Under the pieces are notes generated by a model. That model ran no database searches and was not told the origin of the DNA. It saw only the letters and a program-made list of their open reading frames with translations. The position numbers and the translations under genes are program-made. A stretch of DNA of 64,000 nucleotides from the NCBI RefSeq assembly GCF_008124605.1, contig NZ_VRYN01000002.1:248001-312000 (forward strand), read 5' to 3'. The stretch is from Halobacterium salinarum DSM 3754. GTDB taxonomy: Archaea; Halobacteriota; Halobacteria; Halobacteriales; Halobacteriaceae. Positions 16,588 through 24,358 of this stretch are shown here, one piece after another; the first letter of the stretch is position 1; every line of letters begins with the position of its first letter.

Positions 16588-16940
16588 ACCTCTCCTCGCG
16601 AAACTGCGATAAGAACTCCCTGCTCGCTCCGTCCCGCCGCTCGTGGTGAACGGTGCGCTCATCCCGTTCGCGCGCCGATGCTTCGCCGACCGGCTCCCAC
16701 GTCTCAGTGCGTCAGTGGGACTTCCAGACCGGCCAGTAGCGGACTTGGAGCGCGTTCCGGAGGCTGTGGATCGGGTCGAGGCCGGCATCCGGACCATCGG
16801 CTGGTTCGAAGTGTTCGGCGAGGTGTCCGGGTGGCGTCACCGGCCGCTGTCGGTCGTCGACCGGTCGCACGTGCAGAGATCCACCGTGCAGGCACGAGGG
16901 CTGCCAGGGGCCCGCTGAGAGGAAACCTACAAGCCACCCG
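16588..16940. other. About 350 bp with no supportable gene
   Basis: The stretch between korB and the next operon carries short open frames on both strands (for example plus 16643-16918) but none has a recognisable protein pattern, a haloarchaeal acidic composition or a promoter. The composition is less biased at third positions than the flanking genes, which argues against coding. It may be decayed sequence or hold an untranslated RNA; I see no tRNA or IS signature. Confidence 0.5.
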
Positions 16941-16943
16941 GGA

Positions 16944-16959
16944 GTAAAGCACGCGTTAC
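16944..16959. promoter_or_regulatory. Inverted repeat GTAA-N8-TTAC at the DUF2178/XRE operon promoter
   Basis: GTAA (16944-16947) and TTAC (16956-16959) form an inverted repeat 11-26 bp before ATG 16970, overlapping the expected TATA position (GTAAAGC). The half-site resembles those before the ABC operon at 17630-17677, so it may be an autoregulatory site for the HTH protein at 17383. This is an inference from spacing and half-site identity. Confidence 0.4.
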
Positions 16960-16969
16960 GATCGTGTCT

Positions 16970-17386
16970 ATGAGCGACCGCGGGTCGACCGGGACGGGGC
17001 GACTGGCGAAGGTCCGGCGGTACCGGCGGCTGATGTACGCGTGCATCGGCGTCGGCGTCGGCGGGTTCATCGTTGCCGCGGAGTTCGACTACCCGCTGGC
17101 CGGACTCGTGGTGTACTGGGCGGGCATCCTCGGCTCCCTCGCAGTCTGGAAGGGGACCTCCGTCACGCTGTACGACGAGCGCGACCTCGACCTGGAGCGC
17201 CGGGCGAGCCTGCTCACACTCCAGATTGCGGGCGTCGTGGGTCTACTGGCGATGACCACGCACGTCGTCGTTGACCAGATGCCGTCGGTGGACGTGCCCG
17301 AGGAGTTCGTCGGTGGCTTCCTCACCATCTCGGCCCTGTTCATCGTCTACGGCGTCGTCTACACGGCCATTCGCTACCGACGATGA
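16970..17386 (+). CDS. Four-helix membrane protein, DUF2178-like
   Basis: This 138-residue integral membrane protein has about four transmembrane segments (near 24-42, 44-62, 80-98 and 110-132). Between the second and third lies a polar loop TSVTLYDERDLDLERRASLLT; the YDERD..LERRAS pattern is typical of the DUF2178 family. Such proteins are commonly paired with a small XRE regulator, exactly as here: the next gene overlaps by four bases (ATGA). The pair may form a membrane-linked sensor that sequesters or informs the regulator, but this is inference. I chose ATG 16970 over GTG 16964. Confidence 0.8.
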   Translation: MSDRGSTGTGRLAKVRRYRRLMYACIGVGVGGFIVAAEFDYPLAGLVVYWAGILGSLAVWKGTSVTLYDERDLDLERRASLLTLQIAGVVGLLAMTTHVVVDQMPSVDVPEEFVGGFLTISALFIVYGVVYTAIRYRR

Positions 17387-17583
17387 GAAACCACGTGCGC
17401 GAACGCCGCGGCGAGGCCGACTTGAGTCAGGCCGACCTCGCGGCCGCCGTCGGGGTCACTCGGCAGACCATCAACGCCATCGAGCGCGACCGCTACGACC
17501 CCAGCATCGAACTCGCGTTCAAGCTCGCGGACTTCTTCGACTGCCGGATCGAGGACCTCTTCGACCCCGAACTCGACGGGTAG
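17383..17583 (+). CDS. XRE-family HTH transcriptional regulator (YozG-like)
   Basis: This compact 66-residue protein is nearly all helix-turn-helix. The HTH covers about residues 13-40 (LSQADLAAAVGVTRQTINAIERDRYDP), followed by ELAFKLADFFDCRIEDLFDPE, the standard ending of this subfamily. It overlaps the DUF2178 gene by ATGA, so the two are co-translated. The neighbours suggest that it controls its own operon and the ABC exporter that starts 160 bp later; both have GTAA(A)/TTAC half-sites at the promoter. Confidence 0.92.
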   Translation: MRNHVRERRGEADLSQADLAAAVGVTRQTINAIERDRYDPSIELAFKLADFFDCRIEDLFDPELDG

Positions 17584-17629
17584 CGAAGGCGGCAGCGCTG
17601 CTCGGTGTTCTGTTCGGACCACCGACAGC

Positions 17630-17677
17630 TTTACCTTGGAGTGTAAAACATACTTTCCTGTAAACCTCGCTTTACAC
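17630..17677. promoter_or_regulatory. Operator array of four TTTAC/GTAAA half-sites before the ABC exporter operon
   Basis: Four half-sites are visible: TTTAC 17630-17634, GTAAA 17643-17647, GTAAA 17660-17664 and TTTAC 17671-17675. The first two make TTTAC-N8-GTAAA, the last two GTAAA-N6-TTTAC, and the outer pair GTGTAAA/TTTACAC (17641 and 17671) is a perfect 7-bp inverted repeat. The last half-site lies about 22 bp before ATG 17695, where the TATA box should be, so a bound protein would block transcription factor B/TBP access. Confidence 0.55.
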
Positions 17678-17694: not shown

Positions 17695-17745
17695 ATGTCC
17701 CCCACCGGCCTCGACACCACGACACCGACTGGAGACCGCCGATGA
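17695..17745 (+). CDS. 16-residue leader ORF before the ABC exporter genes
   Basis: A short frame MSPTGLDTTTPTGDRR starts 22-24 bp after the TTTACAC box, the position expected for a leaderless start, and ends with TGA that overlaps the ATG of the ABC ATPase (ATGA, 17742-17745). A GGAG at 17731-17734, seven bases before the ATPase ATG, provides a Shine-Dalgarno for reinitiation. The arrangement supports translation of the leader followed by coupled translation of the ATPase. The peptide itself may have no function. Confidence 0.5.
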   Translation: MSPTGLDTTTPTGDRR

Positions 17746-18500
17746 CCGACCTCGCCATCCGCGCAGACGGCCTGACGAAGCGTTACGGCGACGAAGCTGC
17801 GGTCGACGACCTCGACCTCGCCGTGCCCGCGGGCAGCGTCTACGGCTTCCTCGGACCGAACGGTGCCGGGAAGACGACGACAATGCGCCTGCTCACCTCC
17901 CTCACCGATCCCACCGCGGGGACCGCCGAGGTCGCCGGCGTTCCAGTCACCGACCGGGCGGCGCTCACCCCGCGAATCGGTTACCTACCCGCCGATCCAC
18001 CGGTCTTCGACGAGCTGACGGGCTGGGAGCAGCTCCGGCACGTCGCCCGACTCCACGGGCTCGACGACGGCGAGGCGGACACCCGCATCGAGTCGCTGCT
18101 GGAGCGGTTCGACCTGCTCGCGGACGCCGACCGCCGCATCGAGTCGTACTCCACAGGCATGACGAAGAAGGTCGGCGTGGTCGCCGCGATGCTCCACGAC
18201 CCGGACGTCCTGTTCCTCGACGAACCCACGTCGGGGCTGGACCCCCGGGCCGCCCGCACCGTCAGGGACACCGTCGCGGACCTCTCGGCGGGGGACGCGA
18301 CTGTCCTTCTCTCCACGCACGTCCTCCCCGTCGTCGACGAACTCGCGGACACCATCGGCGTCATCGACGACGGCGTCCTCGTCGCCGACGGTGACCCAGA
18401 GAACCTCAAATCGACCGCCCGCGAGGGCAGCGCGGCCGACCTGGAGACCGTCTTCATGGAGGTGACTGCGGATGCCGACGCCCCGCTCCCGGATTCGTGA
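17742..18500 (+). CDS. ABC transporter ATP-binding protein (ABC-2 exporter type)
   Basis: This 252-residue nucleotide-binding subunit has Walker A GPNGAGKTT near residue 39, a Q-loop region at GYLPADPPVFDELTG, the signature variant YSTGMTKKVGV, Walker B VLFLDEPTSGLDP, and the switch histidine at LSTHVLP. The DrrA/CcmA-like sequence suggests export of a drug, lipid or peptide rather than nutrient import. Its 3' end overlaps the permease gene by 29 bases. A Shine-Dalgarno GGAG precedes the ATG, unlike most genes in this window, because translation follows a leader ORF. Confidence 0.95.
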   Translation: MTDLAIRADGLTKRYGDEAAVDDLDLAVPAGSVYGFLGPNGAGKTTTMRLLTSLTDPTAGTAEVAGVPVTDRAALTPRIGYLPADPPVFDELTGWEQLRHVARLHGLDDGEADTRIESLLERFDLLADADRRIESYSTGMTKKVGVVAAMLHDPDVLFLDEPTSGLDPRAARTVRDTVADLSAGDATVLLSTHVLPVVDELADTIGVIDDGVLVADGDPENLKSTAREGSAADLETVFMEVTADADAPLPDS

Positions 18501-20154
18501 AGCCGTCCCCGACGCCGAGGCCGCAGTCGAGTTGGCGCGCGTCGACCTCGTGCGGGGCTACCGGAAGCTGCGCGGCCAGGACTTCTGGCTGCTGTACGGC
18601 GCGCTCTCGGCCGTCGGCTTCGCGCTCATCACGGTGTACGCGTACTCGCTCGGCCACGACACCGGCGTCGCGCTGGCGGCCGGTGAGACGCCGTGGTTCG
18701 CGGCCGGCGGTGCGGCGACCGCCTGGAGCGTCGCCTGGCTGTTCACGGTCGCGATGCTCGTCGTCGAGGCTGTCGGTTCGAACGGCGACCTCGACAACGA
18801 CGGCCACTACCTCACGCTCCGCCCGACCGCCGACATCACCGCCGGGAAGCTCGCGAGCGCCGCTGTCAAGCTCGCCGGGTTCATGCTCTTCCCGGCACTC
18901 GGGCTGGCCCTCGGGCTGAGCCTGGGACTGGGAACGCCGGTCCCCGTCCTCGGCGTCGTCGCCGCGGCGACAGTCACCGTCACGTCGGCGGCAGCCACCG
19001 GCTACCCCGTCGGCTTCCTGCTGAAGGGCGTCGTCCGCCGGTCGAACGTCCTCACGCAACTGAAGCCGGTGCTCGGAGTGGGTATCGGCCTCGGGTACTT
19101 CGCTGTGATGCTCACCGGGGAGTTCACGACCGCCATCGACGCCCTGCGACCCGTGCTCCGCGCGCCCCCGCTCTGCTGGCTCGGCGACCTCTCGCTGGCG
19201 ACAACGCCCGGCGTGACTCCCGGCGCCACCGGTGTCGCTGGGGCGCTCGCCCTCGGTGTCGTCGTCGCAGGCGCGGGCGTCCTTCTCGCGGTGCCGGCCG
19301 CCCGGTACGCCTGGCGCGCCGACGGGATGGCGTCGACCGAGAGTGACGGCGAACCCACGACTGCGCCCGACCACGCGGTCGACAGACTGCTCGGCGTGCT
19401 GACGCGCGCGCCTGCGACCCACGGCGTCGCGAGCACGGCACTGTTGCAGATCTACCGGTCGCCGCTCCGGCTGGTTTTCGTCGCCTTCCCGTTGGTAGGG
19501 GCGATCCCGGTCGGCGAGCAGGTCCTCGCCGGCGGCACCGTGCCGCGGTACGCGCCCTGGCTGGCCGTCTGGTATGGTGCGTGGGCGGGCGGCGCGGCGC
19601 TCCCCCTCAACCCCCTCGGGAATCAGGGCAAGTCGCTGCCGTCGCTGCTGACGGCGCGCGCCGGCGGCCGGCACGTCGTCCGCGGCTACGTCGCGGCGAC
19701 CGGCGTTGTCGCTGTCCCTGTCAGCGGGGCTGTGGCCGGCCTGCTCGCCGGCGCCGCAGGCTACTCGTTGGGCGGCGTACTGGGCGTCGTGGTCGCAGCC
19801 GGCAGCGCTGTGCTGGCCGCATCCGTGCTCGCAGCCGGGGTCGGCAGCGTCTTTCCCCGCTTCGAGGGCGTCGACCTCGCCGGGTCCCGCCGCGCCGTGC
19901 CACCCAGCAAGGTCGCGTACGGCGTGTTCTCCGCGACACTCACGGCGGCCGTCGTCGCGGCCACCGTCGTCCGGAGCGAGGTCCTCCACGATGCAGTCAC
20001 CGTGCTCGTCTCGCGGACGCTGCCGTTTGGTTGGCGTGTGAGCGCGGGCACCGTCGAAACGGGGGCCTTCGTCGCGCTGGCGGCGGTCGCTGTTGCGCTT
20101 CCGGTGGCCTACCGGGTGGCAGTGGCCCGGCTCGGGGGCTACCGGCTGGCCTGA
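18472..20154 (+). CDS. ABC-2 exporter permease, large haloarchaeal form
   Basis: This 560-residue polytopic membrane protein has about 12 predicted membrane segments. An amphipathic N-terminal part (AAVELARVDLVRGYRKLRGQDF) resembles the start of ABC-2 permeases, and a polar insert near 285-310 (ESDGEPTTAPDHAV) divides it into two halves of about six helices. Overlap with the ATPase gene by 29 bases indicates one operon and one complex. The substrate is unknown. Its twofold organisation suggests that one chain may supply both permease halves. Confidence 0.88.
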   Translation: MPTPRSRIREAVPDAEAAVELARVDLVRGYRKLRGQDFWLLYGALSAVGFALITVYAYSLGHDTGVALAAGETPWFAAGGAATAWSVAWLFTVAMLVVEAVGSNGDLDNDGHYLTLRPTADITAGKLASAAVKLAGFMLFPALGLALGLSLGLGTPVPVLGVVAAATVTVTSAAATGYPVGFLLKGVVRRSNVLTQLKPVLGVGIGLGYFAVMLTGEFTTAIDALRPVLRAPPLCWLGDLSLATTPGVTPGATGVAGALALGVVVAGAGVLLAVPAARYAWRADGMASTESDGEPTTAPDHAVDRLLGVLTRAPATHGVASTALLQIYRSPLRLVFVAFPLVGAIPVGEQVLAGGTVPRYAPWLAVWYGAWAGGAALPLNPLGNQGKSLPSLLTARAGGRHVVRGYVAATGVVAVPVSGAVAGLLAGAAGYSLGGVLGVVVAAGSAVLAASVLAAGVGSVFPRFEGVDLAGSRRAVPPSKVAYGVFSATLTAAVVAATVVRSEVLHDAVTVLVSRTLPFGWRVSAGTVETGAFVALAAVAVALPVAYRVAVARLGGYRLA

Positions 20155-22619: not shown

Positions 22620-23471
22620 ATGAGCATCGAGACACGTGGCGGCCCGCCCCTGGGCCGGCTCCTCGAACAGACCACGGCGTTCGCCGTGCGAACCCTCCAG
22701 ACGCTCCGCCGGAACAGCGCTGTCGCCTTCTGGGCGGTGGCGTTCCCCGCGATGTTCTACCTGCTGTCCGTGTCCCTTTTCATCGACACCGGAGGGATGC
22801 CGGCCGAGGTCGTGAGCGCGGTCAAAGCCACGCACGCCGTCTCGTACGGGGCCTTCGCGGCCCTCACCGTGTTCCTGAGCACGTTCTCCCAGTCGCTCGT
22901 CGCGGACGTCGAACGCGGCCGATACCGCCAGTTCCGAGCACTCCCCGTGTCGCCGGCAGCGGACTTCCTCGGGCGGTTCGCGGCCGCCTACCTGTTCGCC
23001 GTCGCCGCCGTCCTCGCTGTGCTGGGCGTCGGTGCCGCCACGGGGGCGGCGTTCACGCTCCGGTCGGCCGCCTCGATCCCCGTGGCCCTGCTCGGGCTGC
23101 TGGCGCTCGGCCTGTTCGCCGCCAGCATCGCCGTCGTCCTCGTCGCCGTCGTCCCGGACGCGAAGTTCGCGAGCATCGTCGCCGTCAGCGTCGTCATGCT
23201 CGCCTTCTTCCTCACCGGCTACAACGGCATCCAGCCCGGGATGCTCGCCGGCGCTGCCGACTTCGTGAACGTCGTCCCGAACGCGCTGGCCACCCGGCTG
23301 GCCGTCCACCACCTCGTCGCCGCCGGCGGGTGGACGCAAGCCGGACTGGCACCGCCCGGCGCGCCGACGAGCACGGGTCACGTCGCGCTGCTCGCCGGCT
23401 ACGCGGTGGCCGGACTCACGCTCGCCGTCGCCGCCACCCGCCGCTCGCTCTACGGGGGTGCGGTCCGGTGA
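22620..23471 (+). CDS. ABC-2 type transporter permease
   Basis: This 283-residue membrane protein has about six transmembrane helices. After an N-terminal cytoplasmic helix (RTLQTLRRNSAVAFWAVAFPAMFYLL) come FLSTFSQSLVADVERGRYRQFRALPVSP, the conserved cytoplasmic loop of ABC-2 permeases before the third helix, and four further hydrophobic segments. This is the DrrB/NodJ-like exporter type. It is the first gene of a four-gene operon with an ATPase, a second membrane protein and a winged-helix regulator. ATG 22620 sits 27 bp after a TATA-like box, so it is probably leaderless. Confidence 0.9.
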   Translation: MSIETRGGPPLGRLLEQTTAFAVRTLQTLRRNSAVAFWAVAFPAMFYLLSVSLFIDTGGMPAEVVSAVKATHAVSYGAFAALTVFLSTFSQSLVADVERGRYRQFRALPVSPAADFLGRFAAAYLFAVAAVLAVLGVGAATGAAFTLRSAASIPVALLGLLALGLFAASIAVVLVAVVPDAKFASIVAVSVVMLAFFLTGYNGIQPGMLAGAADFVNVVPNALATRLAVHHLVAAGGWTQAGLAPPGAPTSTGHVALLAGYAVAGLTLAVAATRRSLYGGAVR

Positions 23472-24358
23472 GCGTCGACCGGCCAGCCGTCGAGGCGCGG
23501 AACGTCCACAAGGCCTACGGCGAGGACGGCGTCCTCGACGGCATCGACCTCACCGTCGCTGAGAACGAAGTGCTGCTGTTGATGGGGCCCAACGGCACCG
23601 GGAAGACGGTGTTGCTGTCGTGTCTCGCCGGTGGCACCGAGCCGTCGGAGGGCTCCGTGTCGGTGTTCGGGACGCCCGTCAGCGAAGACGGCGGCCGGAG
23701 CCTCTCGCTGCTGCTGCAGGGCGGCGCGAGCGTCGACACGCTCTCTGGCCGCGAGACGGCCGCGTTCTACTCCCGGCTTCACCCCGAGTTCACGGACCGC
23801 TGGCGGACGTACGTCGACGACCTCGGTATCGACGGCGACCTCGACAAACGCATCAAGTACTACTCGGAGGGCATGAAACGCAAGCTCGAACTCTCGCTGG
23901 CGCTGTCCGTCGACGCGCCGCTGTACCTCCTCGACGAACCGACGGCGGGCGTCGACCTCTCGATGGTGCAGTCGTTTCACCGCGTCATCCGCGACCGCGT
24001 CGCGGACGGCGGGACCGTCGTCGCCACGAGCCACCGGCCCGTCGACGCCGACCTCGCCGACCGCGTCGCGTTCGTGAACGGCGGCGGCGTGCTCGCCGTC
24101 GACACCCCCGAGGCGCTGTTGGACGGCGTCCCGACCGTCGTGCGAGTGGTCGGCCAGGCCACCGCCGGCGACGCCCTCGCCCCGCACGTCGTCGGCGACC
24201 CGTTCTACCACGGCGACGAACGCCGCGGATTCCTCCGCGAGCACGCGACTCTCGCGGACATCCGCGAGCACGCCGGCGACGCCACCGTCGAGACCGTGGA
24301 GCCGAGCTACACCGACGCGTTCAACTACTACGTCCACGCAGCCGCCGACAATGAGTGA
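23468..24358 (+). CDS. ABC transporter ATP-binding protein
   Basis: This 296-residue nucleotide-binding subunit starts at GTG 23468, which overlaps the permease stop as GTGA. Walker A is GPNGTGKTV, the signature is YSEGMKRKLELSLAL, Walker B is LYLLDEPTAGVD, and the switch histidine lies in VVATSHRPVD. An unusual stretch LLLQGGASVD stands at the Q-loop. A C-terminal extension of about 80 residues (GQATAGDALAPHVVGDP onward to the YVHAAADNE end) resembles substrate- or permease-contacting domains of exporter ATPases. It must pair with the permease at 22620. Confidence 0.93.
   Translation: MSVDRPAVEARNVHKAYGEDGVLDGIDLTVAENEVLLLMGPNGTGKTVLLSCLAGGTEPSEGSVSVFGTPVSEDGGRSLSLLLQGGASVDTLSGRETAAFYSRLHPEFTDRWRTYVDDLGIDGDLDKRIKYYSEGMKRKLELSLALSVDAPLYLLDEPTAGVDLSMVQSFHRVIRDRVADGGTVVATSHRPVDADLADRVAFVNGGGVLAVDTPEALLDGVPTVVRVVGQATAGDALAPHVVGDPFYHGDERRGFLREHATLADIREHAGDATVETVEPSYTDAFNYYVHAAADNE

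Follow-up and report, generated by a model that had tools for sequence, protein, structure and literature searches.

A DUF2178–XRE gene pair and a candidate palindromic operator shared with an ABC exporter in haloarchaea

Within the 64-kb window analysed here (the whole stretch of DNA under study, to which all coordinates refer unless another locus is named), genes for a DUF2178-type membrane protein and an XRE regulator lie ahead of an ABC exporter on the + strand, and inverted repeats of the form GTAAA-N6-TTTAC are found at the promoters of both units. We consider it probable that the XRE protein is an autoregulated repressor of its own operon and of the exporter, with the DUF2178 protein acting as a sensor that relieves the repression. 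This reading would turn an unannotated gene pair that is common in haloarchaea into a defined regulator–operator–target system, testable in Haloferax with standard tools.

Palindromes and promoters of the locus

The DUF2178-type gene (16970–17386, + strand) encodes 138 aa with four predicted helices and is read here from ATG 16970, with GTG 16964 as an alternative start. The ATG (17383) of the XRE/HTH_3 regulator gene (17383–17583, + strand; 66 aa, CylR2-like) shares an ATGA with the DUF2178 stop codon, so co-translation of the two proteins is plausible. On the same strand, and after the exporter operator, a short ORF of 16 aa (17695–17745) ends in a TGA that overlaps the start of the exporter ATPase gene, again as ATGA. 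The DrrA-like ATPase (17742–18500, + strand; 252 aa) matches PF00005 at 101 bits, and the membrane subunit (18472–20154, + strand; 560 aa) has about 11 hydrophobic helices. An upstream ORF of 16–41 aa with an ATGA or GTGA overlap onto the ATPase start is present in 10 of 16 related operator-controlled operons; the sequence of these ORFs is unconserved, and the stop–start overlap suggests translational coupling to the ATPase. The window also holds a second ABC-2 exporter (22620–24358), in which the permease gene comes before the ATPase gene and from which an operator of the GTAAA-N6-TTTAC kind is absent.

At the DUF2178–XRE promoter, the single palindrome GTAAAGCACGCGTTAC (16944–16959; one mismatch to GTAAA-N6-TTTAC) lies 10 nt 5′ of the DUF2178 ATG, and a palindrome with zero or one mismatch occupies the same place in seven related loci, including those of genomes G009, G012 (same GTDB genus), G007 and G060. 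The initial annotation had described this site as an inverted repeat GTAA-N8-TTAC, and it is indeed there: the pattern occurs twice in the window (16944–16959 and 17660–17675) against 0.03 matches expected from shuffles. With up to one mismatch allowed, GTAAA-N6-TTTAC is found three times (16944, 17643 and 17660) against 0.08 expected, and all three matches belong to this locus. The exporter promoter carries two 16-bp palindromes with a single T as spacer, GTAAAACATACTTTCC (17643–17658; one mismatch) and GTAAACCTCGCTTTAC (17660–17675; perfect half-sites), which together form the tandem GTAAA-N6-TTTAC-T-GTAAA-N6-TTTAC (17643–17675) with one mismatch. GTAAACCTCGCTTTAC is the only perfect GTAAA-N6-TTTAC of the 2.36-Mb host genome, and the tandem is the sole copy there at up to three mismatches. 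The half-site centres are spaced by 11 bp, as suits a dimer that contacts neighbouring major grooves.

Four copies of the half-site had been proposed for the exporter promoter. Four exact 5-mers are present (TTTAC 17630, GTAAA 17643, GTAAA 17660 and TTTAC 17671), but the first is the TATA box and no operator half, because it falls in register with the TATA box found at 91 related operators. The partner of GTAAA 17643 is the degenerate TTTCC at 17654–17658, which had been overlooked; the tandem palindromes themselves are real.

The exporter TATA box, TTTACC (17630–17635, + strand), was placed by an alignment of eight loci and is in register with the consensus of the 91 operators, CG..AgatTTAa, in which the TATA box has a fixed place 8–12 nt before the operator; a BRE-like CG precedes it at 17623–17624. 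Archaeal transcription usually starts about 26 nt from the TATA box, which would put the exporter start near 17659, midway through the operator. As the TATA box stands at a fixed distance before the operator, the operator would span the expected start site in the related promoters as well. Archaeal repressor sites usually lie over the start site, and the position of the operator between TATA box and start codon therefore fits repression. For the DUF2178–XRE operon, CCTACAAG (16926–16933, + strand) is a weak TATA-like element, proposed with low confidence and conserved in G009 and G012.

Across the whole genome, the loose pattern GTAA-N8-TTAC is at background level (6 sites, compared with 5 for the control). 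A wide regulon in this genome was rejected, single sites elsewhere (up to one mismatch) being as numerous as those of the control; two look-alike single-site loci, L008 and L119, were also set aside, as their flanks are not homologous.

The operator in other haloarchaea

The association between operator and regulator was assessed in an even sample of the class (194 genomes), with tandem operators accepted at up to two mismatches and XRE matches at E ≤1e-14. The tandem operator was found in 84 genomes and an XRE match in 111; all 84 operator-bearing genomes encode XRE, and none of the 83 XRE-less genomes has the operator (Fisher p ~1e-31, shared ancestry ignored). Part of this co-occurrence simply reflects the operator that the XRE operon itself carries; the exporters provide the more independent test. 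A reversed control pattern had a match in one genome of the sample, and 27 of the 111 genomes with an XRE match have no tandem operator at up to two mismatches. Conservation of the half-sites across orthologous loci, named earlier as a check on the proposed regulon, is borne out: the operator hardly varies among 91 distinct sites.

Homologues of the exporter membrane subunit occur in 19 genomes of the haloarchaeal sample. In each of the 11 most similar exporters, the operator immediately precedes the ATPase gene, and four gene orders are represented among them. The order DUF2178–XRE–operator–(small gene)–exporter is that of the window, G009 and G060, and also of G010 and L009 outside the sample; the order operator–exporter–DUF2178–XRE is found in G157, G104, G152 and G191. 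In G192, G176 and G102, operator and exporter are separated from XRE by 4–8 kb, and in G174 they are on a different contig from it. The operator thus stays with the exporter while its map position changes, which fits the prediction of a trans-acting regulon. The remaining eight of the 19 exporters showed no operator (six were scanned at up to four mismatches, G129 and G052 at up to two only): five of these are in genomes without an XRE match, and three (G069, G153 and G205) are more distant relatives, 36–45% identical. The small regulon suggested in the initial annotation gains support from this comparison, both through the presence of XRE in every tandem-bearing genome and through an operator that follows the exporter across contigs.

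Most haloarchaeal DUF2178–XRE loci carry the tandem at the DUF2178 promoter, and most haloarchaea have the operator at that promoter only; the exporter is therefore an occasional member of the regulon. A general association of the gene pair with ABC exporters was also considered and rejected: an exporter is nearby in only a few loci, and is therefore an optional target. Within the window's genus, and also in G060 from a different family, a single palindrome stands at the DUF2178–XRE promoter and the tandem is found before the gene that follows XRE. This gene encodes no exporter in G018, G012 and G007; the tandem there precedes a gene for a protein of 83–102 aa that has two hydrophobic helices and matches no Pfam family (members at L109:5575–5826, L009:1719–1970, L159:4403–4651, L106:5939–6190 and L107:3765–4073). 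Such a gene is located either between operator and ATPase, as in G010, L009 and G060, or alone under the operator; it is missing from the operon of the window, from which it was lost. In G012, a C-terminal remnant of the exporter membrane subunit (L107:4146–4406) accompanies an operator kept before the small gene, a case of exporter decay.

Tandem operators unlinked to the gene pair precede other genes as well (called in these related loci as simple ORFs). Secreted lipoproteins with DUF3887 and an alpha/beta-hydrolase domain are encoded directly behind such operators (L122:3507–4967, L123:3541–4989 and L127:7887–9362) and are a second recurrent predicted target. Secreted proteins of the beta-lactamase family (PF00144) are found in the same position (L128:5052–7271 and L132:5231–7135), as are DUF2178 genes that have no XRE neighbour (L171, L173 and L176). 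Four loci (L110–L113, from G008, G014, G016 and G015) encode a diverged XRE protein, 57–63% identical, together with a putative membrane protein of 130 aa; a third palindrome lies beside the tandem there, in a divergent arrangement with a large gene encoding about 615 aa.

The regulator pair and the readings of the locus

The HTH_3 domain (PF01381; 65 bits, above the cut-off of 23) covers nearly the whole XRE protein, which in this respect resembles the HTH_3/Cro-C1 (XRE) family; it differs in being a free-standing protein of 66 aa that has a membrane partner and is without a ligand or protease domain. The closest solved chain is PDB 9k3w, a PbsX family transcriptional regulator (E 1.1e-16), for which a literature search found no paper. 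Two CylR2 chains also match (2xiu, E 1.5e-13; 1utx, E 4.3e-12), the homology including the helix SRQTIN, and among XRE relatives the region of the recognition helix, T/SRQTIN, hardly varies.

The membrane protein scores 22.5 bits against DUF2178 (PF09946; cut-off 22.8, E 0.00013), a domain for which our literature search found no paper that mentions it. Its structure model consists of four helices (mean pLDDT 83.8), and a fold search with this model against the PDB returned no informative match, with nothing below E 3. In an alignment of 29 homologues, the only invariant cluster is a DER motif, located in the loop that joins helices 2 and 3. A basic N terminus on the inside would place this loop in the cytosol, where it could meet XRE. 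The DUF2178 protein is likely to be the sensor or antagonist by analogy to CylR1/CylR2, and this analogy, combined with the invariant DER loop, makes a membrane-sensed response plausible.

The preferred mechanism would work as follows. An XRE dimer would bind the GTAAA-N6-TTTAC palindromes; the one on its own promoter would hold production of the regulator pair at a low level, and the two in tandem, covering the predicted transcription start, would keep the exporter off. The four-helix DUF2178 protein would sense a membrane or envelope signal and, in the manner proposed for CylR1 and CylR2, lift the repression by way of its DER loop in the cytosol. The comparison establishes the palindromes and their conservation, their strict co-occurrence with XRE, their location between TATA box and start codon, and their link to the exporter wherever it maps. 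We infer four further parts, namely that the binding protein is XRE, that binding represses, that DUF2178 senses, and that what is sensed is a membrane-active compound which the exporter removes. The single and imperfect site at the own promoter in this genome is a point against the repressor reading, as are the confinement of the operator to the DUF2178–XRE promoter in most haloarchaea and the 27 XRE-bearing genomes without a tandem.

Several other readings deserve consideration. XRE may autoregulate its own operon only, with the exporter sites being remnants of a duplicated promoter or serving another regulator. Such a restriction would agree with the many haloarchaeal loci in which the operator is confined to the DUF2178–XRE promoter, and adjacency could have carried the sites to the exporter; we nevertheless find it unlikely, because exporters keep the operator even at 4–8 kb from XRE or on a separate contig, exporters in XRE-less genomes are without it, and, in the genus of the window, the stronger tandem site is the one on the exporter side. 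Improbable to a similar degree is that XRE serves as an activator, or an activator–repressor switch, of the exporter and is tethered at the membrane by DUF2178. Nearly all loci co-encode a small membrane protein, and tandem sites can allow both cooperative binding and dual control; however, an operator that lies 3′ of the TATA box and covers the expected start favours repression.

The gene pair could also be a toxin–antitoxin system, with XRE as antitoxin and autorepressor and DUF2178 as a membrane-active toxin. A small autoregulated operon with an XRE gene has this appearance, and the best NCBIfam match of XRE is a type II antitoxin family (Y4mF, TIGR03070), but that match is far below its cut-off (38.9 compared with 71.65 bits), DUF2178 genes with the operator occur apart from XRE, and elsewhere the operator reaches exporters and secreted hydrolases, all of which leaves this reading distinctly improbable. 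Finally, the half-sites might be chance matches in the AT-richer DNA of promoters, as the background frequency of the loose pattern across the genome might lead one to think; the shuffle controls, the reversed-pattern control and the conservation across genera exclude this, and we give it almost no credence.

Distant relatives and comparison with known systems

Outside haloarchaea, we examined 36 loci with XRE relatives from methanogens, Bacillota, Gammaproteobacteria, Actinomycetota and Chloroflexota. The 900 bp upstream contain 33 palindromes at up to one mismatch (1.04 per kb, compared with 0.05 in the remainder of the loci), an enrichment of about 20-fold; a control palindrome occurs 4 times upstream and 21 times in the rest of the same loci. 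Taken over those methanogen and bacterial genomes as a whole, the single palindrome shows no enrichment over the control, and it is therefore position that carries the signal. Upstream of these XRE relatives, the partner gene again codes in most cases for a small membrane protein, in which a DER motif is often present. Two Bhargavaea genomes (Bacillota; L044 and L049) have several palindromes before an operon of XRE, two DER-type membrane proteins and an ABC ATPase, a set of functions equal to that of the window.

These relatives raise the possibility, to which we assign slightly less than an even chance, of an ancient two-protein module common to archaea and bacteria, in which a DER-loop sensor would act directly, without phosphorylation, on a CylR2-like repressor. 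The operator GTAAA-N6-TTTAC/TTGAC would have stayed constant across both domains, and the regulated genes (exporters, secreted hydrolases and the sensor itself) would have been swapped between lineages.

With regard to the exporter, the closest NCBIfam model to the ATPase is TIGR01188 (drrA), which likens the system to DrrA-type ABC-2 drug exporters; the ATPase differs in falling below the family cut-off (243.8 compared with 312.45 bits), and the membrane subunit differs in having neither a Pfam family nor a PDB chain match in our profile search.

CylR1 and CylR2 regulate the cytolysin operon of Enterococcus faecalis; CylR2 occupies the promoter of its target, and induction requires the membrane protein CylR1, through a mechanism that is unsettled (PMC3709268). 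The XRE protein described here is likewise a 66-residue HTH protein, homologous to CylR2 and paired, without a phosphorelay, with a small multi-helix membrane protein, and in the preferred reading it too would be a repressor on the target promoter. On the other hand, the present system is archaeal, its DUF2178 protein has four helices compared with three predicted in CylR1, and DUF2178, XRE and exporter genes are all on the + strand, whereas cylR1–cylR2 is divergent from the cyl operon and the promoters overlap. The target differs too, being an ABC-2-like exporter in place of the Cyl lanthipeptide cytolysin operon, as does the operator, here a tandem joined by a T and located at the start site; among the neighbours of the module that were examined (exporter, reductase and aldo-keto-reductase-like genes), none was of cytolysin type. 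Because its genes are not divergent and no cytolysin operon was seen beside it, we do not assign the system to the Cyl system; by analogy, it is CylR2-like in its regulator and similar in its presumed working. The one-step membrane-to-DNA signalling proposed for CylR1/CylR2 being unsettled in mechanism, an operator and a DER loop conserved in archaea and bacteria alike may offer a tractable model for signalling of this type.
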